Below are positions 1-30,162 of a stretch of DNA of 40,931 bases, in pieces. The DNA comes from Gammaproteobacteria bacterium. GTDB taxonomy: Bacteria; Pseudomonadota; Gammaproteobacteria; Thiohalospirales; Thiohalospiraceae. Within the stretch, counting starts at the first letter, position 1; every line of letters starts with the position of its first letter. Where the stretch lies: the NCBI GenBank assembly GCA_024277595.1, contig JAJRUV010000112.1, positions 1-40,931 on the forward strand, in the 5' to 3' direction. Below the pieces are notes generated by a model. The model was not told the origin of the DNA. It ran no database searches and saw only the letters and a list, made by a program, of their open reading frames with translations. The position numbers and the translations under genes were made by a program.

Positions 1-127
1 GTTGAAAAAGCCTCGGGCGAGTGCGAGACAAGGCGGAATCCGGCGAAAAAGCGCAGTTTACACGGAGTAAATGAGCATTTTGAGCCGGATTCCAACGCCG
101 GATCGTGCCGCATGAGGGTTTTTCAAC
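1..127. repeat. Palindromic miniature repeat (element A)
   Basis: The stretch begins GTTGAAAAAGCCTC and ends with the near-perfect inverted copy at 111-127 (13 of 14 bases pair). A second perfect inverted pair of 10 bp (GGAATCCGGC at 35-44, GCCGGATTCC at 84-93) lies inside, so the whole unit can fold into one long imperfect hairpin. The middle (about 42-81) contains TTTACACGGAGTAAA and AAATGAGCATTT, small dyads that recur in the element at 13344-13495. There is no coding capacity. It looks like a non-autonomous miniature transposable element. Because the window starts at its first base, a left-hand target duplication cannot be checked. Confidence 0.6.
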
Positions 128-137
128 AGCCTGTTAA

Positions 138-3630: not shown

Positions 3631-6600
3631 ATGTTAGAAGCAATTATCAGATTTGCGCTTGCCCGTCGAGGGTTGGTGATGGTGCTCGTCATTATCGTTA
3701 TGGGTCTGGGCGTGTGGAAATTTACCCAGTTACCGATTGACGCCGTACCGGATATTACCAACGTTCAGGTTGTCATCAATACTGCGGCTCCCGGTTACAC
3801 TCCGCTGGAATCAGAACAACGAGTGAGTTTTCCTGTAGAGACCGCGATGGCGGGTCTGCCAAAATTATCCTATACCCGTTCCGTCTCACGCTATGGTCTG
3901 TCGCAAGTGACGGTGGTGTTTGAAGAAGGCACGGATATCTATTTTGCCCGGCAGTTGGTCAGCGAACGCCTGAGCGGCGCAAAAGGCGACCTGCCCTCTT
4001 CACTGGAGCCGATCCTCGGCCCGATTGCTACGGGACTGGGCGAGATTTTTATGTTTACCGTTGATGCCAAACCGGGTGCCAGAAACAGCGATGGCAGCCT
4101 GGTAACACCAATGGACCTGCGTTCAGCCCACGACTGGATCATTCGTCCGCAGTTAATGCGCGTTGCGGGTGTGGCGGAGATAAACCCCATTGGCGGCTTC
4201 AAGAAAGAGATCTTGGTGGCACCTGACCCAGCCAGATTATTGGCTTACCAAACGAACTACACCGAGCTTGTCGAGGCGATACAAAACAACAATAGTAACC
4301 GCGGCGTTGGTTTCATCGAACACAATGGCGCACAGTGGTTGATGCGTGTGCCGGGCCAAGCTGGAACGCTGGCTGATCTGGCGAATATCGTGATCGGCCA
4401 ACATCAAGGTATTCCCGTTCTGGTTAAAGATGTGGCCAATGTCTCTTTGGGTAAAGAGTTGCGCTCAGGTGCCGCGACTCAGAATGGCCGGGAGGTCGTG
4501 ATGAGCACGGTTTTTATGTTGATTGGTGAAAATAGCCGTACCGTTGCCAATGATATTGCAATCAAGCTGGAAGAGATCAAGCGCACTCTACCTGACGGAA
4601 TCACCGTCACGGCCGTTTATAACCGAACCACGTTAGTCGACAAAACATTGGAGACCGTGCAAAAAAATCTGCTGGAAGGGGCTCTGCTGGTCATTGTGGT
4701 TCTGTTTCTGTTTTTAGGAAATGTTCGGGCCGCGATATTAACCGCTGCGGTTATTCCGATTGCCATGTTAATGACCATCACAGGCATGGTGCAGACAAAA
4801 ACCAGCGCCAACCTCATGAGTCTTGGTGCGCTGGATTTTGGTTTGATCATTGATGGAGCGATAATCATTGTCGAAAACTGTATGCGCCGCCTGAGCGAAT
4901 CCTGTCGTAAAGATGGCCTGCCACTCAAGGAACGTTTGGTTATCGTCTTTGAAGCAACCCGCGAGGTGATACGCCCTGCGTTATTTGGCGTGTTTATTAT
5001 TACCGCTGTCTATATTCCCATCTTCGCGCTCAGTGGCGTAGAAGGAAAAATGTTTCACCCCATGGCGATCACAGTCATTATCGCCTTGGTCAGCGCGATG
5101 ATTTTATCCATCACTTTTATTCCGGCCGGTGTCGCACTGCTCTTCAAGAAACCCGTAAAAGAGAAAAAAAACAGGATCGTTCAGACCGCTCGCTTGCTCT
5201 ACAAACCTGTTTTGTTACTTTCTCTGAAGCTCAGGTGGGTTGTTGTTGTATTTGCGCTCAGTCTGGTTATCTATTCCGGGTTCCTGATCCCGAAGTTAGG
5301 TTCCGAGTTTGTGCCTGAGCTTGATGAAGGTGATATCGCCATGCACGCATTGCGTATTCCCGGCACCTCACTCAGTGAAGCAATCCATCTACAAAAATCC
5401 CTGGAATCGGAAATCAAGAAACTGCCGGAGGTTGAACGGGTGTTTGCCAAAATCGGTACCGCCGAAGTGGCGACCGATGCCGTGCCGCCCAGCGTAGCGG
5501 ATAATTTCATTATTCTTAAACCTCGGGATGAGTGGCCGGATCCTGGCAAAGAAAAAACTCAATTTATTGCTGAGCTAGAGGCTTTGGTGACGCCGATTCC
5601 CGGTAATCGTTATGAATTTTTGCAACCCATTCAGATGCGTTTTAACGAACTGATTTCCGGGGTGCGTTCAGAGGTGGCTGTCAAGGTATTTGGTGATGAT
5701 TTTGAGCAACTGATTGCGCTGGGCGACCAGATAGAAAAGGTCGTTGGCAATGTGCCCGGTGCTGCCGATGTGGCTGTCGAGCAGACCACTGGCTTGCCAG
5801 TGATGACGATCGAGCCCAAACGTGAGGCCATGGCACGTTATGGTTTAAGCATCATTCAGTTACAGAATCTGCTGGCAACTGCGCTGGGGGGAACGGTTGC
5901 CAACCAACTGTATGAGGGAGATCGCCGTTCCGATATTGTGGTTCGCTTGCCCGAGGATCTGCGCACCGATGTTGATGCTCTGTCTGATCTTCCCGTTATG
6001 CTTGCCGATGGCAATTATATTCCCTTGAAGGAGGTGGCCAGGCTGCAATTGATCACAGGTTACAGTCAGGTATATCGGGAAAATGGCAAGCGTCGTGTCG
6101 TGGTTGCAGCCAACGTTCGCGGGCGAGACCTGGGTTCCTTTGTGCAGGATATTCAGCAAGCAATAGAAGAAAATATTGAAGTGCCCGCAGGCTATTGGGT
6201 TGAATATGGGGGAACTTATCAAAAGCTTCAATCGGCAACCCAACGTCTCTCCATTGTCGTGCCAATCACACTGGCATTAGTGATTAGCTTGCTTATTATG
6301 GCGTTGGGCTCGATCAAGGATGCTGCCATTATTTTTTCGGGGGTTCCGTTGGCGCTAACCGGAGGGATCGCAGCGTTGTTGTTGCGGGATATTCCCTTTT
6401 CAATTTCAGCCGCTGTGGGTTTCATTGCGCTATCGGGTATTGCGGTTTTGAACGGTTTGGTTATGGTCTCTTTTATTCGAGACCTGCGATTTCATGGACA
6501 GGCACTGCATGAAGCTATCATTGAAGGTGCATTAACCCGGTTGCGCCCTGTGTTAATGACCGCATTAGTGGCTGCGCTGGGTTTTGTTCCCATGGCGCTC

Positions 6601-13070: not shown

Positions 13071-13752
13071 TTGTGGCGATGCTCACGCACAGGCTTTGTG
13101 GTGGCGGCCATGCGCAATCATTGGGTGAGTTACTATAAGTGGTTGCAGCAGGGAAAATGGTCTTGGCCGGGATTGATGAGACAGTTTGTCCGTTTGGCAC
13201 TGAGGGTGGTCAAGCCGGAGGTCGGTTATCTGGTCATCGATGACACTTTTGATCCTGCGGACTTCGAGGGGAGCTAGGTGCCTCATCCCATGGGAACAAG
13301 CCCAGTCTGGCAGCGTGTGTGCGTAGACAATGTTAGGTTGGCTGTAACTATTCAGCATAGTTGAAAATGAGTATGTAACTGTTCAGATTGCCCCTGAAAT
13401 TTGTCAGTTCAAGGCGAAAAATGTGAGTTTACACGGGTAAATGATCATTTTTTAACGCAGAAATGGCAGATTTCAGGGGTGAGCTGAATAGTTACGGTTG
13501 GCTTTGTCTCTGGGTGATCAAGCGGTGCCTGTACTGCTGTCGCGTCTGGTGCCGAGCAGTAGCAACACCGGCAAACTGGTGGCGGCCATCTGGGCCGTTC
13601 ATGGACGTAACGTGCGTGTTGGTGGATAGCTGGTAGATATGCGCAGAGTCTTTATTGAGTCGATGTTGCCACGAGGCTTTGATGTCATTGGACAGATATG
13701 TGCTGGTATCCGGTTTTATGAGGAACCGCCCTGGCATCCGTGAAAATACGGC
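13071..13752 (+). pseudogene. Decayed DDE transposase (IS701/IS4-like), interrupted by a miniature element
   Basis: Fragments of one transposase are spread over three frames. NHWVSYYKWLQQGKWSW and VVKPEVGYLVIDDT (first DDE aspartates) lie around 13110-13250. After a frame break, NKPSLAACVR occurs near 13295-13325. After the insertion at 13344-13495 the frame resumes with LLSRLVPSS and GKLVAAIWAVHGR, and near 13735 come residues equivalent to GRPRKYG with an internal stop. Several frameshifts and stops show it is dead. The family label is from memory of the DDT and GRPRKYG motifs and is less certain than the diagnosis of a transposase. Inverted ends were not identified. Confidence 0.7.
13344..13495. 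mobile_element. 152-bp miniature transposable element with 8-bp target duplication
   Basis: The element begins GTAACTATTCAGC and ends with the perfect inverted copy GCTGAATAGTTAC (13-bp ends). It is flanked by an exact 8-bp direct repeat, GGTTGGCT at 13336-13343 and 13496-13503. Removing it and one repeat rejoins a continuous transposase sequence, so this is a true insertion. A second, slightly diverged left end (GTAACTGTTCAG at 13375-13386) lies inside and starts a longer inverted arm (GCCCCTGAAATTTG matched by CAGATTTCAGGGGTGA). The core 13413-13451 resembles that of element A at the window start. GTAA termini with 8-bp duplications suggest mobilisation by an IS66-type transposase. Confidence 0.85.
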
Positions 13753-13824: not shown

Positions 13825-13873
13825 CGTTTCGACCAGAAAGGGTACAATACAAGCTTGGTTTCTGGTCGAAACG
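13825..13873. repeat. Perfect inverted repeat, 15-bp arms
   Basis: CGTTTCGACCAGAAA at 13825-13839 is followed after 19 bases by its exact reverse complement at 13859-13873. The loop contains TACAAT, a possible -10 hexamer. It ends ten bases before the ATG of the truncated transposase at 13883, so it could be an operator of that gene, a hairpin, or two opposed insertion-sequence ends. The interval 13753-13824 is AT-rich and shows no gene. Confidence 0.7.
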
Positions 13874-15665: not shown

Positions 15666-17615
15666 TTGAACGATATTGTTAAAAACATTTTATTGTGGGT
15701 TGTGATTGCTGTCATTTTGATGATGGTTTTCAATAACTTCACCCCGCAGCAGCAGGCGGCACAACCGCTTGAATACTCCCGTTTTGTGGCTGATGTGCGC
15801 GATGGGCAGGTGAAAAAGGTGACCATTGAAGGCCGGACTATCAAAGGAATAACAGCCGACGATAACACTTTTGTTACGTACAGCCCTGGCGACCCCGGAC
15901 TGATCGGCGATCTGCTCAATAGCAACGTCGTGATAGACGCACGTCCGCCCGAACAGCAGTCGTTACTGGTGCAAATTTTCATCTCCTGGTTCCCCATGTT
16001 GCTGTTGATTGCTGTGTGGATCTTCTTCATGCGGCAGATGCAGGGGGGCGGCGCGGGGCGCGGGGCCATGTCTTTTGGCAAGAGCCGTGCCCGGATGCTG
16101 GGTGAAAACCAGGTCAAGATAACCTTCAACGATGTGGCAGGTGCTGAAGAAGCCAAGGAAGATGTTGCTGAACTGGTGGAGTTTCTGCGGGAACCGGAAA
16201 AATTCCAGAAACTGGGTGGCAAGATCCCGCAAGGTGTATTAATGGTGGGGCCACCAGGTACCGGTAAGACGCTGTTAGCCAAGGCCATTGCAGGTGAAGC
16301 CAAAGTGCCGTTTTTCACCATCTCCGGCTCCGATTTTGTTGAGATGTTTGTAGGTGTTGGTGCATCCCGTGTGCGCGACATGTTCGAGCAGGCCAAAAAA
16401 CATGCTCCCTGCATTATTTTCATCGACGAGATTGATGCGGTGGGCCGTCATCGTGGTGCTGGCCTGGGTGGTGGTCACGATGAACGCGAACAGACCTTGA
16501 ACCAGTTGTTGGTGGAGATGGATGGTTTTGAGGGCAATGAGGGCGTGATTGTTATTGCTGCCACTAACCGGCCGGATGTTCTGGATCCGGCTTTGCTGCG
16601 TCCGGGGCGTTTTGACCGGCAGGTGGTGGTACCGCTGCCGGATCTGCGTGGTCGGGAACAGATCCTCAAGGTGCATATGCGTAAAGTACCGATTGCTGAT
16701 GATGTGAAGGCCTCGGTTATTGGCCGCGGTACGCCGGGATTCTCCGGCGCGGATCTGGCCAATCTGGTCAATGAGGCTGCCCTGTTTGCCGCTCGCGGAG
16801 GGGCGCGGACGGTGACTATGGATGATTTTGAAAAGGCCAAAGACAAGATCATGATGGGGGCGGAACGCAAGTCCATGGTGATGAGCGAGGATGAGAAAGA
16901 ACTTACCGCCTATCACGAATCGGGCCATGCTATCGTGGGACGCTTGGTACCGGATCATGATCCTGTACATAAAGTGACTATTATCCCTCGGGGACGTGCT
17001 TTGGGCGTGACCATGTTCCTGCCTACGGAAGATCGATACAGCTATAGCAAACAGCGCTTGGAAAGCCAGATTTGTACCCTGTTTGGTGGCCGTATTGCTG
17101 AAGAGCTGATTTTTGGCTCTGAAAAGGTGACTACCGGGGCTTCGAATGATATCCAGCGAACTACCGAGATTGCCCGCAACATGGTAACCAGGTGGGGCTT
17201 GTCGGAACGTTTGGGACCTCTGACCTACAGTGAAGAGGAAGGTGAGGTGTTTCTGGGGCATTCGGTGACTCAGCATAAAAATGTTTCTGATGAGACGGCT
17301 CATATCATCGATGAAGAGATACGCTCGATCATTGAGAATAACTATGAGAAAGCGAGAAAACTGCTGACCGATCATCTGGACAAGCTGCATATGATGGCTG
17401 ATGCATTGATGAAGTATGAAACCATTGATGCACAACAGATCGATGACATCATGGCCGGCAAACCGCCACGTCCCCCCAAGGATTGGGATGAGCCGGAGCC
17501 TCGCTCAGGTGGAGGAGGTGCAGTGGACAGTGACGAGAATGCTGGCAAGAGTGAGGAAGCCGTTAAAAAAGATAAAAAAAGCGGAAGTGTCGGGGAACCC
17601 GCAAGCCAACATTAA
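15666..17615 (+). CDS. ftsH: ATP-dependent zinc metalloprotease FtsH
   Basis: A 649-aa inner-membrane AAA protease. Two transmembrane segments (about 5-23 and 103-120) flank a periplasmic domain. The AAA module has Walker A GPPGTGKT at 195-202, Walker [12 protein letters not shown], and the second-region RPGRFDRQ. The zinc site HESGH is at 417-421. The C-terminal tail is Gly/charge-rich and low complexity. It degrades misfolded membrane proteins and regulators such as LpxC in relatives. Start TTG 15666 follows AGAGG with good spacing; no ATG fits the conserved N-terminus. folP follows 23 bases later. Confidence 0.97.
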
Positions 17616-17638
17616 CGGCAACTGCCGGGTTTTATTGA

Positions 17639-18478
17639 ATGACCAAGCGCCTGGACTGCGCGGGTAAACTGCTGGATCTGTCACTGCCGCAGGTAATGGG
17701 TATTCTGAATACCACTCCCGATTCCTTTTCGGACGGGGGTGTTTTTTTTTCCCCTGATGCAGCTATTAATCAGGCCCGTCATATGTTTCAGGCCGGGGCG
17801 GCGATAGTTGATGTCGGGGGGGAATCAACCCGGCCCGGTGCCCAGCCCGTGCCGCTGCAGGAGGAGCTCGATCGGGTAATTCCGGTAGTTGAGGGATTGC
17901 ATGCGGAATTGCCGGTTATTGTCTCCATAGACACCAGCAAACCAGAAGTGATGCGCGAGGCGGTCAAGGCCGGGGCTGGGATGATCAATGATGTCACCGC
18001 TCTTCGGCAGGACGGAGCAATAGCTGTCGCTGCTGAATGTAACGTTCCCGTTTGTCTGATGCATATGCAGGGCCAGCCCCGCATTATGCAGAAACAACCA
18101 CGCTACCATGACGTGGTTGGCGAGGTGACTGCTTTTTTGCGCAGTCGAATTAATGCCTGCCTGGGCGCGGGGATTCGTCGTGAACAACTACTGCTTGATC
18201 CTGGGTTTGGGTTCGGCAAGACATTAGCGCATAATTTACAGCTGCTGAATCGGCTTCCTGATATAACCGTGCTGGGATTCCCTGTATTGGTGGGGGTATC
18301 GCGTAAATCCATGCTGGGAACGCTGCTGGATGAACGTCCGGTACAGGGGCGGCTTTATGGCAGCATTACGGCGGCTACCGTGGCTGCGTGGTTGGGGGCA
18401 TCCGTTGTGCGTGCGCATGATGTGGGCCCTACCGTTGATGCCCTGAAGATAGCTGCTGCTGTAAAACAGATTGAATGA
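17639..18478 (+). CDS. folP: Dihydropteroate synthase
   Basis: A 279-aa TIM-barrel enzyme that joins 6-hydroxymethyl-dihydropterin diphosphate to p-aminobenzoate in folate synthesis. Family signatures are present: MGILNTTPDSFSDGG near residue 20, GGESTRPGA near 60 (phosphate and pABA side), DPGFGFGKT near 182, and GVSRKSMLG near 220. It is the usual partner of glmM behind ftsH. The start at ATG 17639 overlaps no upstream gene. Confidence 0.96.
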   Translation: MTKRLDCAGKLLDLSLPQVMGILNTTPDSFSDGGVFFSPDAAINQARHMFQAGAAIVDVGGESTRPGAQPVPLQEELDRVIPVVEGLHAELPVIVSIDTSKPEVMREAVKAGAGMINDVTALRQDGAIAVAAECNVPVCLMHMQGQPRIMQKQPRYHDVVGEVTAFLRSRINACLGAGIRREQLLLDPGFGFGKTLAHNLQLLNRLPDITVLGFPVLVGVSRKSMLGTLLDERPVQGRLYGSITAATVAAWLGASVVRAHDVGPTVDALKIAAAVKQIE

Positions 18479-18496
18479 CAAGAAAGCGAGGCGAGA

Positions 18497-19858
18497 ATGG
18501 GTAAACGCTATTTTGGGACTGATGGTATTCGTGGCAAGGTGGGAGATAATCCAATTACGCCGGAGTTTGTGCTGCATCTGGGCTGGGCAGTTGGCCATGT
18601 GCTGGCCAGTCACGGTGGCCGGGGTACCGTAGTGATTGGTAAGGACACCCGGATTTCCGGCTACATGTTTGAATCAGCCTTGCAGGCGGGTCTGTCTGCG
18701 GCTGGTGTGGATATCCGTCTTTTGGGACCCATGCCGACACCGGCCATCGCCTATCTTACCCGAACCATGCGGGCTGATGCCGGTATTGTTATCAGCGCTT
18801 CCCATAATCCCTATTTTGACAATGGTATCAAGTTTTTTTCCCGGCTTGGTTTCAAGCTTCCAGATGAAACGGAACATGAGATTGAAAAATATCTGGATCA
18901 TCCGGTCAGCTGTGTGGAGTCGGAGCAGCTCGGCAAGGCGGTGCGGGTAGATGACGCAGCCGGGCGATACATTGAATTCTGCAAGAGCACCGTTCCGCTC
19001 GGACTTGAGTTGGGCAGTATGAGAATGGTAGTGGATTGCGCGAACGGCGCGACCTATGACGTAGCGCCAAAAGTATTCCAGGAGTTGGGAGCCGAGGTCA
19101 TTCCCATCGGGACAGAGCCGGATGGTGTCAATATCAACACCGGGTGCGGCTCGACCAGCCCGGCCACGTTGCAGCAGGCTGTTATTGAGCATGGTGCGGA
19201 GGTGGGTATTGCGCTGGATGGTGACGGTGATCGCCTCATTATGGTTGACCACAAGGGTGAAGTGGTGGATGGCGATGAGTTGCTGTTTGTTATTGCCCGT
19301 GATCGGCAAGGCAATGGTCACCGCAACGGTGGTGCTTACAGTGGCGGTGTTGTTGGTACGGTAATGAGCAATCTCGGGCTGGAGCTGGCGTTTAGGGATG
19401 CCGGGATCCCTTTTCGGCGTGCAGCAGTGGGGGATCGTTATGTTGGAGAGATGATGCAACAGGAGGGGTGGCTCCTTGGTGGCGAGTCTTCCGGCCATAT
19501 CATCTGTCGTGATTGTACCACTACGGGTGACGGCATTGTCTCCGCGTTGCAGGTGGCGGCGGCGATGGTCAATAGCGGCCAGACGCTGTATACCTTGAAA
19601 CGGGGTATGACCAAATTTCCGCAAACCATGATAAACGTTCGCCTTGAAACGCGATTTTCACCGGACGATTCCGAGCATGTGCAAAACGCTGTGCGTGATG
19701 TGGAAGCACAACTGGTGGGACGTGGTCGTGTGCTGCTGCGGCCCTCGGGGACAGAGCCAGTGATTCGTGTCATGGTGGAAGGTGATGATGCTCCACAGGT
19801 CGAGACTTTGGCGAAACAGCTGGCTGATATTGTGGCCCAGGCGGCTATTGCAGAATGA
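18497..19858 (+). CDS. glmM: Phosphoglucosamine mutase
   Basis: A 453-aa alpha-D-phosphohexomutase that interconverts glucosamine-6-phosphate and glucosamine-1-phosphate for UDP-GlcNAc, and so for peptidoglycan and LPS. The N-terminus [12 protein letters not shown] is typical. The phosphorylated serine is S102 in ISASHNP. The metal loop DGDGDR is near 242, the sugar loop GGESSGH near 327, and the C-terminal phosphate site [12 protein letters not shown] near 418. ATG 18497 lies 18 bases after folP, with an AGGCGAG-type site upstream. Confidence 0.97.
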
Positions 19859-19876
19859 CAACTACAGGGATACCTC

Positions 19877-19972
19877 AAGGCGGCTGTCCGATTCAGGATG
19901 AGCCCACTGCGGAAAAGCCATTTTGGCCGGATGTCTCATTGCTACGCTCCCCTAAATCCGACAGCCTTCCGG
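19877..19972. repeat. Imperfect palindrome between glmM and tpiA
   Basis: GGCTGTCCGATT at 19882-19893 pairs with AATCCGACAGCC at 19955-19966 (11 of 12), and GCCATTTTGGC in the middle forms a smaller hairpin. It starts 18 bases after the glmM stop and could act as a 3' transcript structure or be a decayed miniature element. The remaining 19973-20185 holds no gene that I can support; the open minus-strand frame there has no recognisable family. Confidence 0.4.
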
Positions 19973-20185
19973 GAGTGCGTTTTATTCGATAGTGGCATCA
20001 GCTCGATATTGTTCGAGTCCTTCTCTTTCTGCATCGAGTTCTCAGGTGCCCGTAACTCGTTGAAGTGACCGATCAAGCCGCTGGTAAAAGGCGTAACAGA
20101 TAATTTTTGATATGTGAAAAATTGATTTTCTTGATCAGGGAAGGTAAGCTTCACCGACTTTTTGTTGCGAACATGAGGAAAACAG

Positions 20186-20938
20186 ATGCGTCAACCACTG
20201 GTCGCCGGGAACTGGAAGATGAATGGTTCCACCGAGAGTATCAAACATCTTCTGGATGGAATTAAACGTTCACTTGATGTGGTAAGCAAGGCGGAAGTTG
20301 TTGTGTGCCCCCCGTATGTTTATCTATCCGGTGTTCAGGCGCAACTGGCAGGGACAGCCATCTCGCTGGGTTCCCAGAATGTAAGCGAGTACAAAGCTGG
20401 TGCCTACACGGGCGAAATATCAACATCCATGTTGCTGGATCTCCAGTGTCGTTATGCCATTGTAGGGCACTCAGAACGCCGCTCTATCTATGGGGAAAAA
20501 GATGTGCAAGTAGCTGCCAAATTCGCCGCAGTGCGAGCTGCCGGCATCAAGCCTGTACTGTGCGTTGGAGAGGTTCTGGAGGAGCGGGAGCAGGGAGTTA
20601 CAGAAGATGTCGTGGCGCGTCAGCTGGATGCTGTTATTGCTCTGGAGGGGGTAGAGGCGCTTGCCGATGGCGTCATTGCCTATGAGCCGGTCTGGGCCAT
20701 TGGTACCGGTAAGACGGCCTCCCCCGAACAAGCCCAGGATGTGCATGCCTTTATTCGTAACCGTATTGCCCGATTGAGCGCTGTTACAGCAGAGAAAGTG
20801 CAGATTCTCTACGGGGGCAGCGTGAAAGGCGCCAATGCCCCGGAGCTGTTTTCCATGCCGGATATTGATGGCGGGCTGATTGGCGGCGCTTCGCTTGATG
20901 CGGATGAATTTATTTCCATCTGTCAGGCCGCCGTCTGA
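20186..20938 (+). CDS. tpiA: Triose-phosphate isomerase
   Basis: A 250-aa TIM-barrel enzyme of glycolysis/gluconeogenesis interconverting DHAP and glyceraldehyde-3-phosphate. Catalytic residues are all visible: N9 and K11 in AGNWKMNG, H95 in IVGHSERR, and E167 in AYEPVWAIGTG. The phosphate-binding loops YGGSVKG and GGASL are present near the C-terminus. ATG 20186 is preceded by GAGGAAAA. secG follows 25 bases later, a common gammaproteobacterial pairing. Confidence 0.97.
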   Translation: MRQPLVAGNWKMNGSTESIKHLLDGIKRSLDVVSKAEVVVCPPYVYLSGVQAQLAGTAISLGSQNVSEYKAGAYTGEISTSMLLDLQCRYAIVGHSERRSIYGEKDVQVAAKFAAVRAAGIKPVLCVGEVLEEREQGVTEDVVARQLDAVIALEGVEALADGVIAYEPVWAIGTGKTASPEQAQDVHAFIRNRIARLSAVTAEKVQILYGGSVKGANAPELFSMPDIDGGLIGGASLDADEFISICQAAV

Positions 20939-20963
20939 CAGATAACTATGGATATAGAGTAGC

Positions 20964-21389
20964 ATGCAAACAATTATACTGGCAGTTCACATTGTTATTG
21001 CCATTAGCCTCGTTATCCTGATTCTGCTGCAGACAGGAAAGGGGGCCGAGATGGGTGCGGCGTTTGGCGGCGGGGCATCAGGAACCGTGTTTGGCAGTCG
21101 CGGATCTGCTTCTTTTCTTACCCGTACTACTGCCATTCTTGCGGCAGCATTTTTTGCGACCAGTCTGACTTTGGCGTATTTGTCAGGGCAGACGGTCGTT
21201 CGCAAGAGTGTAACCGATGATTTTTCGCCATCACCCGTTGAGAAAATACAGCAAGAGCCGGCAACCTCAGCACCGGATGTTCCGGTACTACCGCCAGCTT
21301 CGGTGGAAGAGTCCGGGTCAGCAACAGACACGCCAGCCGTGCCTATGGCGACAGAACCGGCTGCGGGTGCCGGTGATAAACAGGAGTGA
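20964..21389 (+). CDS. secG: Protein-export membrane protein SecG
   Basis: A 141-aa subunit of the SecYEG translocon. Helix 1 (about residues 3-22) is followed by the conserved LLQTGKGAEMGAAFGGGASGTVFGSRGS loop, here split as LLQTGKGAEMGAAFGGG and onward, then helix 2 (about 51-72). The C-terminal third is a long low-complexity Pro/Ala/Glu tail, common in gammaproteobacterial SecG but variable. The start ATG 20964 follows a weak TAGAG site. Confidence 0.94.
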   Translation: MQTIILAVHIVIAISLVILILLQTGKGAEMGAAFGGGASGTVFGSRGSASFLTRTTAILAAAFFATSLTLAYLSGQTVVRKSVTDDFSPSPVEKIQQEPATSAPDVPVLPPASVEESGSATDTPAVPMATEPAAGAGDKQE

Positions 21390-21402
21390 TGCGCTGATAT
21401 TT

Positions 21403-21487
21403 GCGGATGTGGTGGAACTGGTAGACACGCCGTCTTGAGGGGGCGGTGGCGCGAGCTGTGCCGGTTCGAGTCCGGCCATCCGCACCA
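21403..21487 (+). tRNA. tRNA-Leu (anticodon GAG)
   Basis: An 85-base class II tRNA with long variable arm. Acceptor GCGGATG pairs with CATCCGC; CCA is encoded at 21485-21487. The anticodon stem CCGTC/GGCGG encloses TTGAGGG, giving GAG. The T arm is GCCGG-TTCGAGT-CCGGC. It lies 13 bases after secG and before nuoA, a conserved arrangement. A T run follows the CCA. Confidence 0.95.
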
Positions 21488-21577
21488 TTTTTTGATGATT
21501 TATAATATTCTGATATTCATGTTATTTGTTAAATTCACGGGGCGCGAAAAATATAGCTGAATCAGACCCTGAAAGGG

Positions 21578-21607
21578 TTGACATCATGTTTGCCCATGGC
21601 ATACGCT
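21578..21607 (+). promoter_or_regulatory. Candidate sigma-70 promoter of the nuo operon
   Basis: A perfect -35 hexamer TTGACA at 21578-21583 is followed 18 bases later by TACGCT (3 of 6 to TATAAT), about 63 bases before nuoA. The -10 is weak, so an activator may be needed. The region 21488-21577 is AT-rich with no gene. Confidence 0.4.
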
Positions 21608-21669
21608 GATCCAAACTATTGCAGTTTTGTTTCAGCGCTGCAGACAACAATTTGGGGACTCCGTAAATA

Positions 21670-22026
21670 ATGCTAGAAAATTATTTTCCCATCCTGATGT
21701 TTCTGGTTATCGGTTTTGCGCTGGGCGGAATAATGATTGGGTTGGGTCTGGTGCTGGCCCCCCGGCGCCCCGATGACCAGAAACTTTCCCCTTATGAATG
21801 CGGTTTCGAACCCTTCGAAGACAGTCGCATGAAATTCGACGTAAGATATTATCTCGTTGCTATCCTGTTTATCATTTTCGATCTGGAAATTGCCTTCCTG
21901 TTTCCCTGGGCGGTGGTGCTGGAGGAGATAGGGCTGTTTGGTTATCTCGCCATGGTGCTGTTCCTTGGTATTCTGGTTATCGGCTTCATTTATGAATGGA
22001 AGAAAGGGGCTCTGGAATGGGAATAG
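21670..22026 (+). CDS. nuoA: NADH-quinone oxidoreductase subunit A
   Basis: A 118-aa complex I membrane subunit with three predicted helices. It contains the conserved [21 protein letters not shown] loop between helices 1 and 2 (shown here in pieces: YECGFEPF, then RMKFDVRYY), which helps form the quinone-access region. It is the first gene of a 14-gene operon and its stop overlaps nuoB by 10 bases. GGGGA lies about 11 bases before ATG 21670. Confidence 0.96.
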
Positions 22027-22499
22027 AAGGTGTCCTGAAAGAAGGGGTTGTAACCACCTCTGCCGACCAGTTGATCAACTGGGCTCGCACGGGGTCGATG
22101 TGGCCGATGACCTTTGGTCTGGCCTGTTGTGCGGTAGAGATGATGCAGGCAGGTGCTGCCCGGTATGACATTGACCGCTTCGGTATGCTGTTCCGTCCCA
22201 GCCCCCGCCAGTCCGATGTGATGATCATTGCAGGAACCTTGATCAATAAAATGGCTCCGGCGCTGCGCAAAGTTTATGACCAGATGGCAGAGCCTCGCTG
22301 GGTTATATCCATGGGTTCCTGTGCCAATGGTGGCGGTTACTATCACTATTCCTATTCTGTGGTAAGAGGATGTGATCGGGTGGTTCCTGTTGATATCTAC
22401 GTACCGGGTTGTCCACCCACTGCCGAGGCACTGTTGTACGGCATTATGCAGTTGCGTAACAAGATCCGGCGCACCAACACCATAGCCCGAAGTGAGTGA
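22017..22499 (+). CDS. nuoB: NADH-quinone oxidoreductase subunit B
   Basis: A 160-aa subunit carrying the terminal [4Fe-4S] cluster N2. The ligands are the tandem C37-C38 in [10 protein letters not shown]102 in MGSCANGGG and C132 in [10 protein letters not shown] 22017 has AAAGGGG eight bases upstream; an in-frame ATG seven codons earlier lacks the family start. It overlaps nuoA by 10 bases, and its stop overlaps a possible GTG for nuoC. Confidence 0.97.
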
Positions 22500-22507
22500 G
22501 TTTATTG

Positions 22508-23134
22508 ATGTCCGATTCTATCCAGAAGCTGGTTGAACTGAGCCGAAACCAGTTTGAAGAAAGCGGTGGTAGCTGTAACGAGGCACTGGGTGAAGTGACA
22601 CTGGAAATTTCTCGCGGACAGCTTCTGGAAACCTGCAAGATTTTGCGTGATGAGCGCGGATTTTCCTTTGAAGAGCTTATCGATTTGTGCGCGGTTGATT
22701 ACTCCGAATTTGGTAATGGCAGCTGGGATGGTTCGCGATTTGCCGTGGTTTATCATCTGTTGTCGATAACCCATAATCACCGTCTGCGGTTGCGTGTATT
22801 TCTGGATAATCAGCAGCCGGTTATTGATTCCGTGGTTGATATCTGGGCCACTGCCAACTGGTTCGAACGGGAGGCCTTTGATCTGTACGGGGTGTTGTTC
22901 GAGGGCCATCCTGATCTGCGCCGTATCCTGACCGACTACGGTTTTATTGGTCACCCCTTTCGCAAGGATTTCCCGCTTGCCGGTAACGTGGAGATGCGTT
23001 ACGACGAGGAGAAGGGGCGCGTCATCTACGAGCCGGTGAGTATTGAAACACGCATAAATATTCCTCGAGTGATTCGTCACGATCACCGTTTTGCGGATGG
23101 AAGTTCAAGCGAAGGGGAAAATGGCGATGCCTGA
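22508..23134 (+). CDS. nuoC: NADH-quinone oxidoreductase subunit C
   Basis: A 208-aa hydrophilic 30-kDa subunit of the complex I connecting arm, separate from NuoD here (fused in E. coli). The family block [24 protein letters not shown] is present (as [12 protein letters not shown] and HPDLRRIL), followed by the conserved [13 protein letters not shown] 22508 is chosen; GTG 22496, overlapping the nuoB stop as GTGA, is in frame and would add four residues. The end overlaps nuoD by eight bases. Confidence 0.95.
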
Positions 23135-24380
23135 AATTCGTAACTATACCCTCAACTTTGGCCCTCAACACCCAGCTGCCCATGGCGTGCTGCGTCTGGT
23201 GCTGGAGATGGATGGTGAGGTCATCGAACGTGCAGATCCGCATATCGGTTTATTGCACCGCGCTACCGAAAAACTGGCCGAGACGCGAACCTATAATCAG
23301 GCGCTGCCTTATATGGACCGTCTTGATTACGTTTCCATGATGTGTAACGAACACGCTTATGTCATGGCAGTGGAGAAAATGCTGGGCGTTTCGGTACCCG
23401 TTCGTGCCCGGTATATCCGAGTGATGTTCGATGAGATAACACGCATTCTCAATCATCTCATGTGGATCGGTGCCCATGGTCTGGATATTGGTGCCATGAC
23501 TATCTTTCTGTACGCTTTTCGTGAGCGAGAGGATCTGATGGATTGCTATGAGGCGGTCTCCGGTGCGCGTTTGCATGCAGCCTACTATCGCCCTGGTGGT
23601 GTGTATCGTGATCTGCCGGACTCCATGCCCAAATACGAAACCTCCAAATGGCATAACACCAAAGATGTGGAGCGTCTTAATCGGAACCGTCAGGGTTCCA
23701 TGCTGGATTTTATTGAAGACTTCACTGACCGTTTCCCCACCTGTGTTGATGAGTATGAAACTTTGTTGACAGAGAATCGTATCTGGAAGCAACGTACGGT
23801 GGATATTGGTATCGTCACACCAGAGCGTGCTTTGCAGTTGGGTTTTACCGGACCCATGATTCGTGGCTCAGGTATCGCATGGGATCTGCGAAAAAAACAG
23901 CCTTATGAGGTTTATGAGCAGCTGGATTTTGATATCCCGGTTGGAACCAATGGTGATACCTATGACCGTTACTTGGTGCGGGTTGAGGAGATGCGCCAGT
24001 CAAACAGAATCATCAGACAATGTGTCAAATGGTTGCGTGAAAATTCCGGGCCGGTGATGCTTGATAATCACAAGATTACTCCTCCTCGCCGTGACGATGT
24101 CAAGGGAGATATGGAATCCCTGATTCACCATTTCAAACTATTCACAGAAGGGTACTGTATCCCCGAAGGTGAAGTATATGCGGCGGTCGAACATCCGAAA
24201 GGGGAGTTTGGTATCTACATGATTTCCGATGGTGCAAATAAACCCTATCGTCTGAAAATTCGTGCACCGGGTTTTGTGCATTTATCTGCACTTGATGAGA
24301 TGTCTCGCGGCCACATGCTGGCGGACGTGGTGGCCATCCTTGGAACCCAGGATATCGTTTTTGGGGAGGTTGACCGTTGA
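23127..24380 (+). CDS. nuoD: NADH-quinone oxidoreductase subunit D
   Basis: A 417-aa 49-kDa subunit lining the quinone pocket with NuoB. The N-terminal [13 protein letters not shown] holds the quinone-site H15 and H19. [11 protein letters not shown] and the C-terminal DIVFGEVDR are family-typical. ATG 23127 (MPEIRNYT) is taken because GGGG at 23114-23117 is nine bases upstream; ATG 23121 is too close to it. The stop is shared with the TTG of nuoE (TTGA at 24377-24380). Confidence 0.97.
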
Positions 24381-24874
24381 CGGGGAGAAACCTGATTGAT
24401 CTGCTGACAAAAGATTCCCGTGCCGGAATCGACCGCTGGGTTGCGAAATATCCGGCCGAGCAAAAGCAGTCGGCAGTGATGGCGGCACTGCGCATTGCGC
24501 AGGATCAAAATGATGGTCATTTAACGACTGACCTGATGGATGCGGTAGCTGAATATCTGCAGATGGATTCCATCGCGGTCTATGAGGTGGCTACGTTCTA
24601 TTCAATGTATGAAATGAAACCGGTCGGGCGCCATAAAATCTGTGTCTGCACCAATATTTCATGCATGTTGTGTGGTTCAGAAAAAATCGTCGAACATTTG
24701 CAGGAGAAGCTCGGGGTTGGTTTTGGCGAAGTGACACCCTATGGCCGGTTTTCACTGAAAGAGGTTGAGTGTCTTGGTGCCTGTGTTGGCGCTCCCATGT
24801 TCCAGATTGGTGAGCACTACTACGAGCATCTTACCGCTGAAAAGGTGGACAAGATTCTGGACGAACTTGATTGA
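24377..24874 (+). CDS. nuoE: NADH-quinone oxidoreductase subunit E
   Basis: A 165-aa thioredoxin-fold subunit of the NADH-dehydrogenase module holding [2Fe-2S] cluster N1a. Ligands are C91 and C96 (CTNISC) and C132 and C136 (CLGAC). The start is TTG 24377, four bases overlapping nuoD, with GGAGGT at 24364-24369 seven bases upstream inside nuoD. Confidence 0.95.
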
Positions 24875-24911
24875 GATGGATTGCGGCAGATAGTACGGCT
24901 GGAGCTAATGA

Positions 24912-26177
24912 ATGAATAACCAAGTCTGTTTCCGAACCCTGCATCTGGATAAGCCGTGGACGCTGGCGACTTATCAGGGCGCGGATGGTTATGAGGTTCT
25001 GAAAAAGATCCTCAAGGAAAGGACCGATCCTGATGATATTATCTCCGAATTAAAAACATCAGCGCTGCGCGGACGCGGCGGAGCGGGATTTCCAACCGGA
25101 CTGAAATGGAGTTTCATGCCCCGCAATGCGCCGGGACAGAAATATATTCTGTGTAATTCGGACGAAGGCGAACCGGGCACCTGCAAGGATCGCGATATCC
25201 TGCGCTATAACCCGCATCAACTTGTTGAAGGGATGATAATCGCCGGTTACTGCATCGGTGCCTCCATGGGATACAACTATATTCGTGGTGAGTTCTGGGA
25301 ACCCTATGAACGATTTGAAGCGGCGCTTGAAGAGGCGCGGACCGCCGGTCTTCTCGGGAAAAATATTTTGGGTTCGGGATTTGATTTTGATATCCAGGTT
25401 CATTTAGGCGGTGGAGCCTATGTGTGCGGAGAAGAGACGGCGCTCATTGAGTCTATTGAAGGGAAAAAAGGTCAGCCCCGTTTCAAGCCACCATTTCCCG
25501 CCAGTTACGGTCTGTATGGCAGGCCGACCACTATTAATAATACCGAGACGCTCGCCTCTGTTCCGGTCATTTTGAAAAAAGGCGGCAAGTGGTTTCTGGA
25601 GCTGGGTAAACCCAACAATGGTGGCAACAAGCTTTTTTGTGTTTCGGGTCACGTCAATAAACCGGGTAACTTTGAGATCCCGATGGGAACACCGTTCGCC
25701 GAGCTGCTGGAGATGGCTGGCGGTGTGCGTGACGGACATAAGCTGAAGGCGGTAATTCCGGGGGGGTCTTCTACCCCTGTATTACCTGCGGATGTGGTGA
25801 TGGATATCACCATGGATTATGATTCCATCGCCAAGGCGGGATCCATGCTGGGTGCGGGATCCGTTATCGTGATGGATGAAACCACTTGCATGGTCAAGGC
25901 GTTGGCGCGGATCTCCTACTTCTACTATGAAGAGTCGTGCGGTCAGTGCACGCCGTGCCGGGAAGGTACTGGCTGGTTGCAGCGGGTGGTCAATCGTGTC
26001 GAAAACGGCCAGGGGCGGCAAGAAGATCTGGATTTGCTGAACGAGGTTGCAAACGGCATTGCCGGAAAAACCATTTGTGCTCTCGGTGATGCGGCGGCTA
26101 TGCCGGTGACAAGTTTCGTCAAGCGTTTTCACGATGAATTCCAGTACCACATCGACCATAAAAAATGCATGGTGTGA
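24912..26177 (+). CDS. nuoF: NADH-quinone oxidoreductase subunit F
   Basis: A 421-aa subunit that binds NADH and FMN and cluster N3. The nucleotide loop [13 protein letters not shown] is at 54-66, the FMN-side motif [14 protein letters not shown] follows, and N3 ligands are C343, C346, C349 (CGQCTPC) and C389 in [13 protein letters not shown] at 24901-24904 precedes ATG 24912. It lies 37 bases after nuoE. Confidence 0.97.
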
Positions 26178-26222
26178 CGGATAAACGTACAAGGCTGAAT
26201 TTACAGGAATACAGGACGGGCA

Positions 26223-28595
26223 ATGGCAGATATTGAAATCAACGGCAAAACGATCAAGGCCCGTGATGGGGTAATGGTGATCGAAGCCGCCGATGAAGCC
26301 GGTATTACAATCCCGCGTTTCTGCTATCACGAGAAGCTGTCGGTTGCGGCCAGTTGCCGTATGTGTCTGGTGGAGGTGGAAAAGGCGCCCAAGCCATTGC
26401 CAGCCTGCGCCACTCCCGTTAGCGATGGCATGAAGGTTTGGACCAACTCGCCAAGAGCGCTGGCCGCACAGAAAAATGTGATGGAGTTTTTGTTAATTAA
26501 TCACCCGCTTGATTGCCCGATTTGCGATCAGGGTGGTGAATGCGAACTTCAGGATATTGCTGTCGGATATGGCAACGATGTTTCCCGCTTCGCTGAAATC
26601 AAGCGTGTGGTTAAAAGCAACGATATCGGGCCACTGATCGTTACCGATTTTACCCGCTGTATTCACTGTACCCGCTGTGTGCGTTTTGGCCAGGAGATTG
26701 CTGGTATCCGGGAGTTGGGGGCTACTGGCCGCGGGGAACATATGGAAATCGGCACCTATGTGGAGAAGAGTGTCAGTTCCGAGCTATCGGGGAATATTAT
26801 TGACCTCTGTCCCGTTGGTTCGCTCACATCCAAGCCGTTTCGTTTTACTGCCCGAGCCTGGGAGCTGACGGATTCCGCCGCCGTTTCGCCTCATGACTGC
26901 GTGGGTTCCAATCTCACGCTGCAGACTCGCCGGAACAAGGTGATGCGCTCACTGCCGCGAGCCAACGAGGCTATTAATGAAACCTGGATCTCTGATCGTG
27001 ATCGGTTCGGTTATGTCGGACTGAACAGTGAGGATCGGTTGAGAACACCTATGATCAAGGTGGCTGGTGAGTGGCGCGAGATTGATTGGAAAACCGCGCT
27101 GGAACAGGTGGTCAAAGGAGTCAAAAAGCTGATTGATACGCAGGGTGCTGATCAGTTGGGGGCACTGGTTTCACCCGGTGCAACACTGGAAGAGATGTAT
27201 CTGCTGCAAAAACTGATGCGGACTTTGGGTAGCGCCAATATTGACCATCGCCTGCGCCAGATTGATTTTTCTGATCAGGATCTTTTGCCGCCGTTCCCGT
27301 GGCTTGGGCAAAATATTGAACAGTTGGAAAAAGTGAATGCCGCATTGCTGATTGGCTCCAATGTGCGCAAAGAGCAGCCCATTATTGGCCACCGTTTGCG
27401 TAAGGCCGCAATTGCCGGCGCCAATATCATGTTTGTAAACCCCGTCGATTTCATGTTCAATTTTCCGGTTGCGGAGAAGCTGATTGGTAATCCAGCACAG
27501 ATGGTGCGAACGTTGGCGGCTATTGCCAAGGCGCTCCTCGATATTACTGGCGAAGCCGCCCCGGAGGGTTTGGCTTCACTGCTGGAAAATATTTCTGTTG
27601 GTGATACCGAACTGGCTATTGCAGAGCGCCTCAAGGCGGCAGAAAATGCCACAGTATTGCTGGGTGCCCTTGCTCAAGGGAGCCAACGGCTCTCATCCCT
27701 GCGCGCTTTGTCTGTCCTGATTGCGAAGCTCAGTGGCGCCCGTTTTGGACAGCTGTCTGAAGGAGCTAACAGCAGCGGCGGTTGGCTGGCCGGTGCTGTA
27801 CCGCATCGCGGTCCGGTAGGTCAGAAAACCTCGGTTACCAGTTTAGTCGATGCTTCTGTAATGCTGGAGCACCCATTGCGGGGCTATCTGCTGATGGGCG
27901 TGGAGCCGGAGCTGGATAGCTCTCATCCGGTTGCCGCCACAAAAGTGCTTAATGAAGCAGAGTTTGTCGTCTCACTGACTCCTTTTCTGAGTGAGCAGAT
28001 GAAACAGTATGCGGATGTGCTGTTGCCAATTTCACCTTTTTCGGAAACATCGGGAACCTTCGTTAACATTGAAGGCCGCTGGCAGAGCTTTGCCGGGGCT
28101 GTCGCACCCTTGGGCGACTCGCGCCCTGCCTGGAAGGTGCTCAGGGTTTTGGGAAATCTGTTTGATCTGCCAGGGTTTGAGTATATCTCAAGCGAACAGG
28201 TGCGCGATGAACTGAAAGCATCATGCGGGCAGGCTGAGTCCTCTGCGGAAGTGGCCTGGCGCTGCCCCGCCGATTTTAACGCTGTCTCCGTGAGCCTGCT
28301 CCGGGTTGGGGAGGTGCCGATCTACGCAACTGACGCGCTGGTTCGTCGATCGGAGCCTTTACAGCAGACGCAAGATGCCATGGCGGCGGCTGTGTATCTC
28401 AATGAGTCGGTGGCGACCGGTCTAGGGCTGGTCGATGGAGATATTGCCCAGGTAGTGCAGGGCGGCGGTTCAGTCTGGCTGCCGGTGGTGATTGATGAAC
28501 GGGTGGCTGATGGTTGTACTGTTATTCCGGCTGCACTGCCTGAGACGGCGGGGCTTGGTGCGATTCATGGTCCGGTGGATGTCAGCAAAAATTGA
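26223..28595 (+). CDS. nuoG: NADH-quinone oxidoreductase subunit G
   Basis: A 790-aa large Fe-S subunit. Cluster N1b is bound by C34, C45, C48 and C62; N5 by H94, C98, C101 and C107; N4 by C146, C149, C152 and C196. The remainder is a molybdopterin-oxidoreductase-like domain without catalytic function in this complex. Only one cysteine is seen in the segment after residue 215 (SPHDCVGSNL), where E. coli-type proteins carry the four N7 ligands, so N7 is probably absent, as in many other proteobacteria. AGGACGGG precedes ATG 26223. Confidence 0.95.
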   Translation: MADIEINGKTIKARDGVMVIEAADEAGITIPRFCYHEKLSVAASCRMCLVEVEKAPKPLPACATPVSDGMKVWTNSPRALAAQKNVMEFLLINHPLDCPICDQGGECELQDIAVGYGNDVSRFAEIKRVVKSNDIGPLIVTDFTRCIHCTRCVRFGQEIAGIRELGATGRGEHMEIGTYVEKSVSSELSGNIIDLCPVGSLTSKPFRFTARAWELTDSAAVSPHDCVGSNLTLQTRRNKVMRSLPRANEAINETWISDRDRFGYVGLNSEDRLRTPMIKVAGEWREIDWKTALEQVVKGVKKLIDTQGADQLGALVSPGATLEEMYLLQKLMRTLGSANIDHRLRQIDFSDQDLLPPFPWLGQNIEQLEKVNAALLIGSNVRKEQPIIGHRLRKAAIAGANIMFVNPVDFMFNFPVAEKLIGNPAQMVRTLAAIAKALLDITGEAAPEGLASLLENISVGDTELAIAERLKAAENATVLLGALAQGSQRLSSLRALSVLIAKLSGARFGQLSEGANSSGGWLAGAVPHRGPVGQKTSVTSLVDASVMLEHPLRGYLLMGVEPELDSSHPVAATKVLNEAEFVVSLTPFLSEQMKQYADVLLPISPFSETSGTFVNIEGRWQSFAGAVAPLGDSRPAWKVLRVLGNLFDLPGFEYISSEQVRDELKASCGQAESSAEVAWRCPADFNAVSVSLLRVGEVPIYATDALVRRSEPLQQTQDAMAAAVYLNESVATGLGLVDGDIAQVVQGGGSVWLPVVIDERVADGCTVIPAALPETAGLGAIHGPVDVSKN

Positions 28596-28621
28596 GATGA
28601 ACAACAGCGGATGGATTATTG

Positions 28622-29653
28622 ATGCTTGATGCGTTACTGACATTGGTGATTGTGCTGCTCAAGATCGTGGCGCTGCTTGTACCGCTGATGGTGGCGGTTG
28701 CCTATTTGACCTTCGCGGAGCGCAAGATCATTGGTTATATCCAGGGGCGTGTAGGCCCTCTGCATGTCGGTCCGCGCGGCTGGCTTCAGCCTATTGCGGA
28801 CGCGGTCAAGCTGATTTTCAAAGAGATTATTGTTCCTGCCGGAGCTAACCGGTTCCTATTCCTGCTGGCGCCCTTGCTTGCCATGGGGCCATCGATTGCA
28901 GCCTGGGCGGTAATGCCTCTTGGTGACAACCTGTACATTACCGATATTGATGCAGGGTTGTTGTATGTGTTGGCGGTCACATCACTAAGTGTCTATGGCA
29001 TCATCATTGCTGGCTGGGCGTCGAACTCCAAGTACGCTCTTCTTGGTGCACTGCGTTCTGCTGCCCAGGTAGTCTCCTATGAGATCGCGATGGGATTTGC
29101 TCTGGTTGGTGTGCTGCTTGCCGCTGGCAGCATGAATTTGCGCGAGATTGTTCTTTCGCAGGAAGGGAGTTTGTTGCACTGGTTCTGGTTGCCGCTGCTG
29201 CCGTTGTTTGTGGTCTATTTTATTGCCGGCCTTGCCGAGACCAACCGCGCACCTTTCGATCTTGCGGAGGGTGAGTCCGAGATTGTCGCGGGGTTCCATG
29301 TGGAGTACTCCGGCATGAGCTTTGGCGTCTTTTTTCTTGCCGAATACGCCAACATGATTCTTATCTCCATGTTGACTTCGCTAATGTTTCTCGGGGGATG
29401 GCTGTCTCCGTTCCAGGGAATTCCGGTGCTGGAGAGCCTGTTTAGCTGGGTGCCGGGGATTGTCTGGCTGTTGCTAAAGACTTCGTTTTTCCTGCTACTG
29501 TTCCTCTGGATACGTGCTACCTTCCCACGCTACCGGTATGATCAATTGATGCGTCTGGGATGGAAAATACTGATTCCGATTACTATTGCCTGGTTGTTGG
29601 TGGTTGGCGCGGCGGTCGTGGGCGGGCTTGGCCCATGGTTTGATGGTGCATAG
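28622..29653 (+). CDS. nuoH: NADH-quinone oxidoreductase subunit H
   Basis: A 343-aa membrane subunit with eight predicted helices, at the junction with the peripheral arm near the quinone channel. Family hallmarks are [15 protein letters not shown] near residue 33 and [20 protein letters not shown] near 205, the acidic loop implicated in coupling. ATG 28622 is preferred over the adjacent TTG 28619. It follows nuoG by 26 bases. Confidence 0.96.
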
Positions 29654-29673
29654 ACGGGAACGGAGAGGTTGAG

Positions 29674-30162
29674 ATGAAAGCATTAGGCCGTTTTTTCAAA
29701 AGTCTGTTCCTGCTGGAGCTGCTGCAGGGTTTGAGGCTGACCGGGCGCTATCTGCTGGATCGCAAGATCACCATAATTTATCCCGAGGAGAAGACGCCGC
29801 AGTCGCCTCGGTTTAGAGGGTTGCATGCTCAGCGCCGTTATCCCAACGGAGAGGAGCGCTGTATTGCCTGTAAGCTGTGCGAGGCAGTCTGTCCGGCAAT
29901 GGCTATTACCATAGAAGCAGAACCGCGTGAGGATGGCAGCCGGCGCACCTCGCGCTATGAGATTGATTTGACCAAATGTATTTTTTGCGGTTTTTGCGAA
30001 GAGTCCTGTCCGGTGGATGCTATCGTGGAGACCCGGGTTTTTGAGTATTTTGGTGACAAGCGCAGTGATCTTGTCAAAAGCAAAGAAGATCTACTGGCAG
30101 TTGGAGATCAGCATGAAACACAGATTGCTGCCGACCGTGCACAAGATGCACCTTATCGATAA
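29674..30162 (+). CDS. nuoI: NADH-quinone oxidoreductase subunit I
   Basis: A 162-aa ferredoxin-like subunit with clusters N6a and N6b. Ligand sets are C63/C66/C69 plus C73 ([12 protein letters not shown]) and C102/C105/C108 plus C112 ([12 protein letters not shown]). An N-terminal amphipathic helix ([14 protein letters not shown]) anchors it to the membrane. GGAGAGG lies before ATG 29674. Confidence 0.96.

Follow-up and report, generated by a model that had tools for sequence, protein, structure and literature searches.

A hairpin core shared by mini-transposon-like elements with different terminal repeats, a probable portable module in a gammaproteobacterial genome and beyond

Two palindromic elements stand in the window analyzed here, a stretch of 40,931 nucleotides that opens a contig of a Gammaproteobacteria bacterium (GCA_024277595.1, contig JAJRUV010000112.1); one is cut by the contig start and the other interrupts a decayed transposase gene (Table 1). 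Both carry the same letters in the same order, and their ends differ. The question that the locus raises is whether the shared core is a unit in its own right, carried by different terminal repeats as an earlier note on this DNA had suggested, and if so what such a core might be for.

The core reads GGCGAAAAA-GCGC-AGTTTACACGG-A-GTAAATGA-G-CATTTT in copy 1 and GGCGAAAAA-TGTG-AGTTTACACGG-GTAAATGA-T-CATTTT in copy 2. Local alignment of the 39–40 base cores gives a score of 51, equaled by 0 of 1000 shuffles, and the ordered core reported inside the two long hairpins is confirmed on these letters. With the core removed, the left arms score 16 (the 8-mer GTTGAAAA, which is non-terminal in copy 2), a value matched by 36 of 1000 shuffles, and the right arms score 10 (the 5-mer AACGC), matched by 962 of 1000; on these scores the ends of the two copies are not clearly homologous. 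The core pattern with type-1 spacing, which in the window recovered copy 1 only, had 0 matches at up to 3 mismatches in 100 dinucleotide shuffles of the window. As to extents, the span first proposed for copy 2 was exact, and that for copy 1 (1–127) is revised: its right end lies at 133, and its left end lies beyond GTTGAAAAAGCC, the full left end, judged from other copies, being CAGGCTGTTGAAAA outside GTTGAAAAAGCC.

Table 1. Positions of the two elements, their parts and the interrupted gene in the window.
Feature	Position	Strand	Details
Element type 1 (copy 1)	1–133	+	left end missing; the window opens at base 1 of contig C81
Right end CAGCCTG of copy 1	127–133		followed by TTAA at 134–137
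Match of core model R1 in copy 1	23–107	+	85 positions, 87.8 bits, E 2.9e-21; R2 88.1 bits
AAGGC, left side of outer conserved internal loop, copy 1	30–34	+	
Core of copy 1, with the apical hairpin and the G-S-A/G-A internal loop	42–81	+	
AACGC, right side of outer conserved internal loop, copy 1	94–98	+	
Decayed DDE_5-like transposase gene, left piece	13071–13274	+	25.8 bits (E 9.7e-6), slightly below the Pfam threshold of 27
Stop	13275–13277		parts the left piece from the stretch interrupted by copy 2, same frame
Left target duplication GGTTGGCT, copy 2	13336–13343		8 bp
Element type 2 (copy 2), GTAACTATTCAGC ... GCTGAATAGTTAC	13344–13495	+	152 bp
Inner second left repeat GTAACTGTTCAG of copy 2	13375–13386	+	nested 121-bp inverted-repeat pair 13375–13495
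Match of core model R1 in copy 2	13404–13467	+	39.1 bits, E 6e-8; R2 39.6 bits
AAGGC, copy 2	13411–13415	+	10 nt nearer the core than in the commonest long form
Core of copy 2	13413–13451	+	
AACGC, copy 2	13454–13458	+	10 nt nearer the core than in the commonest long form
Right target duplication GGTTGGCT, copy 2	13496–13503		exact 8 bp
Same frame resumed right of copy 2	13504–13626	+	no Pfam match of its own

Copy 2 has the marks of an insertion. When its 152 bp and one GGTTGGCT are taken out, the frame of the decayed transposase gene reads across the junction of the empty site; the gene (13071–13626) carries further stops besides copy 2. In type 2 the left repeat is present twice, at a distance of 31 bases, which yields nested inverted-repeat pairs of 152 and 121 bp (13344–13495), and exact 8-bp duplications surround one 121-bp copy (L146) as well as many 152-bp copies. 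A perfect inverted repeat at 13827–13839 and 13859–13871 (TTTCGACCAGAAA / TTTCTGGTCGAAA), downstream of the interrupted frame, is possibly an element end. The window also contains an FtsH-like protease gene (15666–17615) and complex I genes with NuoF-, NuoG-, NuoL- and NuoM-like products, together spanning 15666–34627, and four tRNA genes.

The core is far from limited to these two copies. In the 2.5-Mb genome to which the window belongs, the type-1 core occurs at 27 places and the type-2 core, in a count that takes in related subtypes, at 104 places (up to 3 mismatches; reversed-pattern controls 0), and no place in loci L001–L087 matches both patterns. BLAST with the 152-bp element returned at least 49 matches in the same genome (40 of 168 candidates scored), and a complete genome of the same genus (G212) holds 164 exact cores. 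Contigs C84, C122, C159, C46, C107, C112 and C186, as well as the window at base 1, begin or end in or beside elements; contig edges at these places indicate that the repeats break the assembly, so that copy numbers are likely lower bounds. Short, multi-copy and bounded by inverted ends, with typical lengths of 139 and 152 bp, the elements have the make-up of non-autonomous mini-transposons (MITEs), and the length of the target duplication is fixed per end type, as is expected of such elements. When the end pair giving the longest direct repeat was chosen for each copy, with element ends placed by local search, GTAAC-ended copies had an exact 8-bp duplication in 29 of 66 cases (none in 33, other lengths in 4), CAGGCYGTTGAAAA-ended copies an exact 4-bp duplication in 24 of 43 (none in 18, 2 bp in one) and GGGNNCCTCTAAAA-ended copies a 4-bp duplication in 5 of 15 (none in 6, 2 bp in 4). 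The 4-bp duplications of type 1 are mostly YTAR, as judged by eye. The pairing of GTAAC ends with 8 bp in type 2 and of CAGGCTGTTGAAAA with 4 bp in type 1 implies that the two window elements move by different transposition reactions.

Beyond this genome, a sample of 369 genomes of the class included 48 with an exact core (reversed-pattern control 0 among the genomes listed), and exact cores also stand in at least 120 stretches of a genome-contig scan, a count that says nothing on absence from other phyla. By record title, the matches listed come from Pseudomonadota (including Pseudomonas, Halomonas, Nitrosomonas, and Mariprofundales), Bacteroidota (including Alistipes, Prevotellaceae, Tannerella, Chitinophaga, and Cytophagaceae), Chlorobiota (one genome) and Desulfobacterota (one Desulfobacterales genome). 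The covariance model R1, described below, has matches in 75 of 249 genomes sampled from the phylum (E ≤0.01). Five end patterns beyond type 1 and type 2 surround exact cores. Sorted by patterns written by eye, 155 elements from the class-genome and contig-scan loci comprise 21 with CAGGCYGTTGAAAA, 19 with GTAACT, 18 with GGGNNCCTCT, 9 with GARGTTGWATAAMAAG (plus 2 shared with a neighboring pattern), 6 with TGTGTCACAAAGCG, 3 with GCGTTTTTCACGAGTG, and 2 with GAGGGTGTT, and 75 of the 155 are left unassigned; kinship among some of the end patterns is possible. A complete Pseudomonas-like genome adds another end type, in which the apical stem is altered too, in the form of two near-identical elements (L315 19896–19961 and L323 14800–14865; tip AAGTTTGG/CCAAATGA, ends CTAGGGCCTGTTGAC). 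Comparison of genome-wide copies and their ends, the check that the earlier note had proposed, accordingly reveals a multi-copy core, and true homology of the ends, which the note had named among the observations that would undo its reading, was not found.

The letters that the copies share are arranged in a common fold. Alignment A1 comprises 48 diverse copies picked by eye from 77 non-redundant ones, the 29 dropped being mostly short or irregular; most of its 22 invariant columns are demanded by the search pattern itself, for which the exact core was the bait. The stem between the core and AAGGC/AACGC lies outside the bait; its letters differ between copies but remain paired, with a count of 147 double-changed cells against 47.5 in shuffles (0 of 500 as high) and at most 55 when slid. 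Model R1, built from A1 without window sequence, finds both window copies (Table 1). Searches with R1 supplied 47 matches from 44 of the 48 loci for a second alignment, A2, which omits the own-genome locus L259 and the weak loci L299, L303, and L305 and from which model R2 was made. In A2, whose fitting to structure favors pairing figures, both sides change in 18 of 20 pairs and 95.5% of cells are paired, and the apical stem is swapped by double changes (e.g., GTTTAC/GTAAAT, GCGTAC/GTACGT, GTTTGC/GCAAAT). The internal loops behave differently: the left loop has G in 46 of 47 copies, G or C in 47 of 47 and A in 46 of 47, the right loop is GA in all 47, a bulged A is conserved in 42 of the 42 copies where it is present and the closing pair is G-U in 45 of 46, an invariance that is partly selected, since R1 rewards loop letters, as it does stem letters as well. 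Conservation is looser in CAAGGC, where each letter is kept in 36–43 of 47 copies, and in AACGC, with 32–45 of 47. Strong covariation of the stems, while the internal loops barely change, suggests that selection acts on the folded strand. Compensatory changes could also arise without function, through template-switching correction of palindromes, a process that should also erase fixed mismatches.

The spacing of these parts is variable within limits. AAGGC/AACGC are exact at −25/+13 in 41 of the 155 elements and at −15/+3 in 12, 45 have neither motif exact, and the rest have one motif or a small shift. Each arm of type 2 is shorter by 10 bases, roughly a full turn of the helix, a difference that would leave both loops on the same side. 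The loop at the tip measures 4, 5, or 6 nt in 50, 86, and 19 of the 155 elements, respectively; this variability, above an apical stem of constant length, is easier to reconcile with a recognized hairpin than with two double-stranded half-sites. At the gathering score, Rfam returned no element match from the window including both copies, only the four tRNAs, and with the threshold relaxed to E 1 nothing overlapped the elements in L005 (copy 1), L118, and L181. The common fold that had been suggested as a second check covaries across copies, and the idea of a modular family, in which one structured core is joined to different terminal repeats, is upheld by the number of copies, this fold, and the differing ends and duplications. 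The accompanying suggestion that the core has a function of its own, such as a binding site, is likely in view of how slowly the loop letters change; the partner that would bind there was not found.

GTAA ends with an 8-bp duplication are the mark of IS66-type elements, and a 4-bp YTAR target fits the definition of an IS5-type subgroup. By these definitions, the type-2 ends (GTAA start, 8-bp duplication) agree with the IS66 type and the type-1 ends (4-bp duplications as counted above, mostly YTAR by eye) with the IS5 type; from the sequence of their ends, type 2 looks like an element moved by an IS66-type transposase and type 1 like one moved by an IS5-type transposase. Three genomes of the genus yielded no autonomous or full-length helper bearing the same ends. 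PF03050 has 5 matches in G000 and 1 in G212, and PF01609 has 6 and 1, respectively; none is bracketed by a pair of type-1 or type-2 ends. A 1.2-kb pair of type-1-like ends in L215 was rejected as an insertion sequence, being separate small elements. The same locus has an element with type-1-like ends and a different, core-less interior, and also a nested arrangement (5088–5250 and 5997–6148) in which a type-2 copy with its 8-bp duplication lies beside a TTGAAAAAGTCC end that belongs to a core-less palindromic family with ends resembling type 1.

Some derivatives have lost the core. A 50-bp type-1 derivative (L330, 97–146) has both ends and an intact 4-bp CTAA duplication, a 69-bp type-2 derivative (L335, 70–138) has both ends and an intact 8-bp duplication (GGATTTTC), and L336 is a third core-less end pair. 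Among 20 further end-bearing places without a core match, picked by eye from the own-genome match lists of both core patterns, 8 still match R1 at E 0.1 and 12 are core-less or truncated. Core-less derivatives with intact duplications indicate either that the core is dispensable for these ends or that the tip was deleted after insertion.

Among described repeats, ERIC (also IRU or RU-1) is likewise a long imperfect palindrome of ~127 bp that lies between genes. Its tip, GA-GCTTAC-ATAA-GTAAGT-GA, has the GAG-stem-loop-stem-(T)GA arrangement of the core described here, with letters like AAGGC and AACGC near the expected places; an E. coli copy has AAGGC on the left and AACGCAG on the right. It differs in its ends (TATACTC...GAGTATA), its hosts and the letters of its apical stem, and the window elements, with their other terminal sequences, are not themselves ERIC. 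R1 scores 19.4 bits on the E. coli copy (E 0.015 in 52 kb). On six ERIC copies, found via BLAST with ERIC and not by a model, R1 run unfiltered scores 23.0, 19.4, 9.8 (partial), 9.5, 8.8, and 4.2 (partial) bits and R2 scores 24.1, 19.3, 16.2, 14.5, 13.3, and 4.5 (partial) bits; R2 matches over its whole length in five of the six at a modest 13.3–24.1 bits (E 2.5e-5 to 0.016 in 1.3 kb), and the copies align to its outer loop in two registers. In 400 kb of one Pseudomonas-like genome R2 gave 12 matches up to E 10, of which the six lowest (14.1–40.2 bits) look like real elements, some with inserted arms, and so give no chance level. By eye, the left-hand GAG and the right-hand GA are present in all six ERIC copies, with T before GA in five. 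A decoy test, illustrative only, used patterns chosen after ERIC had been inspected: among structure-preserving shuffles of four copies (50,000 per copy, 200,000 in total) the tip was met 14 times, the tip and one loop twice and all three patterns never; in the real copies, two have all three patterns (L238, L253), one the tip only (L255) and one none (L254, with one tip-stem mismatch). ERIC is likely, but not proven, to be kin to this core module. Positions 109–228 of the E. coli copy L238 also match the Vibrio RNA family V_AS5 of Rfam (RF02818) at 44.5 bits (E 6.1e-7), under the gathering score of 96, and this family seems, from that match, to be built on an ERIC-like repeat. In the passage available of a 2007 paper, how ERIC-type repeats evolved is called not known (PMC2759123); among the literature matches listed, no title, abstract, or passage linked ERIC or any MITE to a core common across end types.

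Other small repeats share single traits with the elements. MITEPsy1 of Pseudomonas syringae, as described in the accessible part of its report, is a 100-nt MITE with inverted ends and a 4-nt CTAG/YTAA duplication, akin to type 1; it was shown to move in vivo, the IS5-family element ISPsy2 being its tentative helper, and its authors mention similar sequences in other genera (PMC3189936). Its end, ...TCTGAAAAAGCC, is close to a class B end found here (GGAAGCTCTGAAAAAGG in L143). The likeness concerns ends and duplication, and that part of the report describes no cross-family core (PMC3189936); the MITEPsy1 end pattern has a near-match in 2 of 249 genomes of one genus. The REPs tagged GTAG or CGTC and associated with RAYT are, in the text available, hairpin superfamilies with conserved unpaired letters in several phyla, as here, and are 20–40 bp long with the tag at one end (PMC3733652), whereas the present elements, mostly 120–160 bp long, are bounded by terminal inverted repeats and duplicate 4 or 8 bp of their target; on length they do not belong to the REP/RAYT group. 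Correia/NEMIS, RUP, YPAL/RU-2, RU-3, and TIMEs are small non-autonomous palindromic repeats too; the text available describes the core for none of them, in a comparison that for RU-2 and RU-3 was made by eye on the letters given in an available passage (PMC2759123).

Taken together, these observations make it probable that the core is a structured, portable unit within MITEs that owe their ends to different insertion-sequence families and have the inner hairpin in common, across phyla and probably with ERIC. The modular architecture is well supported, and the mechanism of the hairpin is what we infer. Both window features would be non-autonomous mini-transposons of two modules each. The outer module, the terminal inverted repeat, would decide which transposase moves the element; the inner module would be the conserved hairpin, common to families with unrelated ends in several phyla and probably to ERIC, and would act as a folded single strand, be it RNA, single-stranded DNA, or an extruded cruciform. 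A putative, widely conserved protein may hold this module via the G-S-A/G-A loop, the bulged A, and the AAGGC/AACGC loop, in which case the module might help the element to spread or be tolerated rather than regulate one gene, and ends could have been exchanged or recruited repeatedly around the hairpin. The account in full, with a loop-selected module taken up by MITEs with different transposases across Gram-negative phyla, ERIC as the enterobacterial branch, a putative protein ligand and the module as the true unit of inheritance between exchangeable ends, is offered tentatively. What would be new is that MITEs carry a conserved, structured module that does not depend on their ends.

It is unlikely that the elements are instead a single MITE lineage in which the ends drifted along with those of the parent insertion sequences and the core is the slowest-changing, functionless remnant. 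Such drift would suit the end types CAGGCYGTTGAAAA, GGGNNCCTCTAAAA, and GAGGGTGTTTACAAAA, which look alike and may be related, and the 4-bp duplications that accompany two of them; the GTAAC/8-bp ends and the ERIC ends, however, are unreachable by small drift, and stems that turned over by double changes while the loop letters stayed are unlike a passive remnant.

Quite doubtful, too, is an RNA-level cis element, kept by the host because transcribed copies fold and alter the stability of neighboring mRNA. ERIC is reported to do this in Yersinia, in the parts available of two papers that also bear on RNase E (PMC2229807, PMC10969869). The fold and its covariation would agree with such a role, as would the position of the elements, which by a simple frame-based gene call are mostly intergenic (10 of 93, 1 of 42, and 0 of 27 lie inside frames of at least 300 bases) and which occur between convergent gene pairs more often than divergent ones (48 against 24, p 0.006), a preference that the purging of promoter insertions would also give. 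Between tandem neighbors, however, the two orientations are found 47 and 39 times (p 0.45), no preference, while the conserved loops are on one strand only, and cis-regulation by RNA in a fixed orientation is unsupported. The same holds for a lagging-strand signal: in one complete genome, where GC skew changes sign near the first base and between 2.4 and 2.7 Mb, 16–18 of 38 copies are co-oriented with replication, depending on the terminus assumed. The absence of orientation or replication bias in these samples tells against any part in host transcription or replication that is tied to one strand, and favors a role in the life of the element itself, or mere tolerance.

A signal for single-stranded-DNA transposition or replication on one template strand, comparable to RAYT or attC hairpins, is highly improbable; conserved unpaired letters in the hairpin and a variable terminal loop speak for it, but the copies of one complete genome show no leading- or lagging-strand preference, and target duplications that measure 8 and 4 bp are indicative of DDE transposases. 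Chance or convergence, with compositionally similar palindromes sharing a motif by accident, conceivable inasmuch as long AT-rich hairpins are common in such genomes, is rejected by the absence of shuffle matches, the empty reversed-pattern control and the R1 E-values of 2.9e-21 and 6e-8 obtained without window sequence.

In the usual account, MITEs are insertion sequences that have undergone deletion, and what lies between their ends has no meaning. A middle kept across phyla while the ends change, as the portable module proposed here would be, would reverse this view, and ERIC repeats would gain a place in a larger family. A hairpin of ~45 nt with nearly invariant loops would, moreover, be a concrete bait for the protein that recognizes it.
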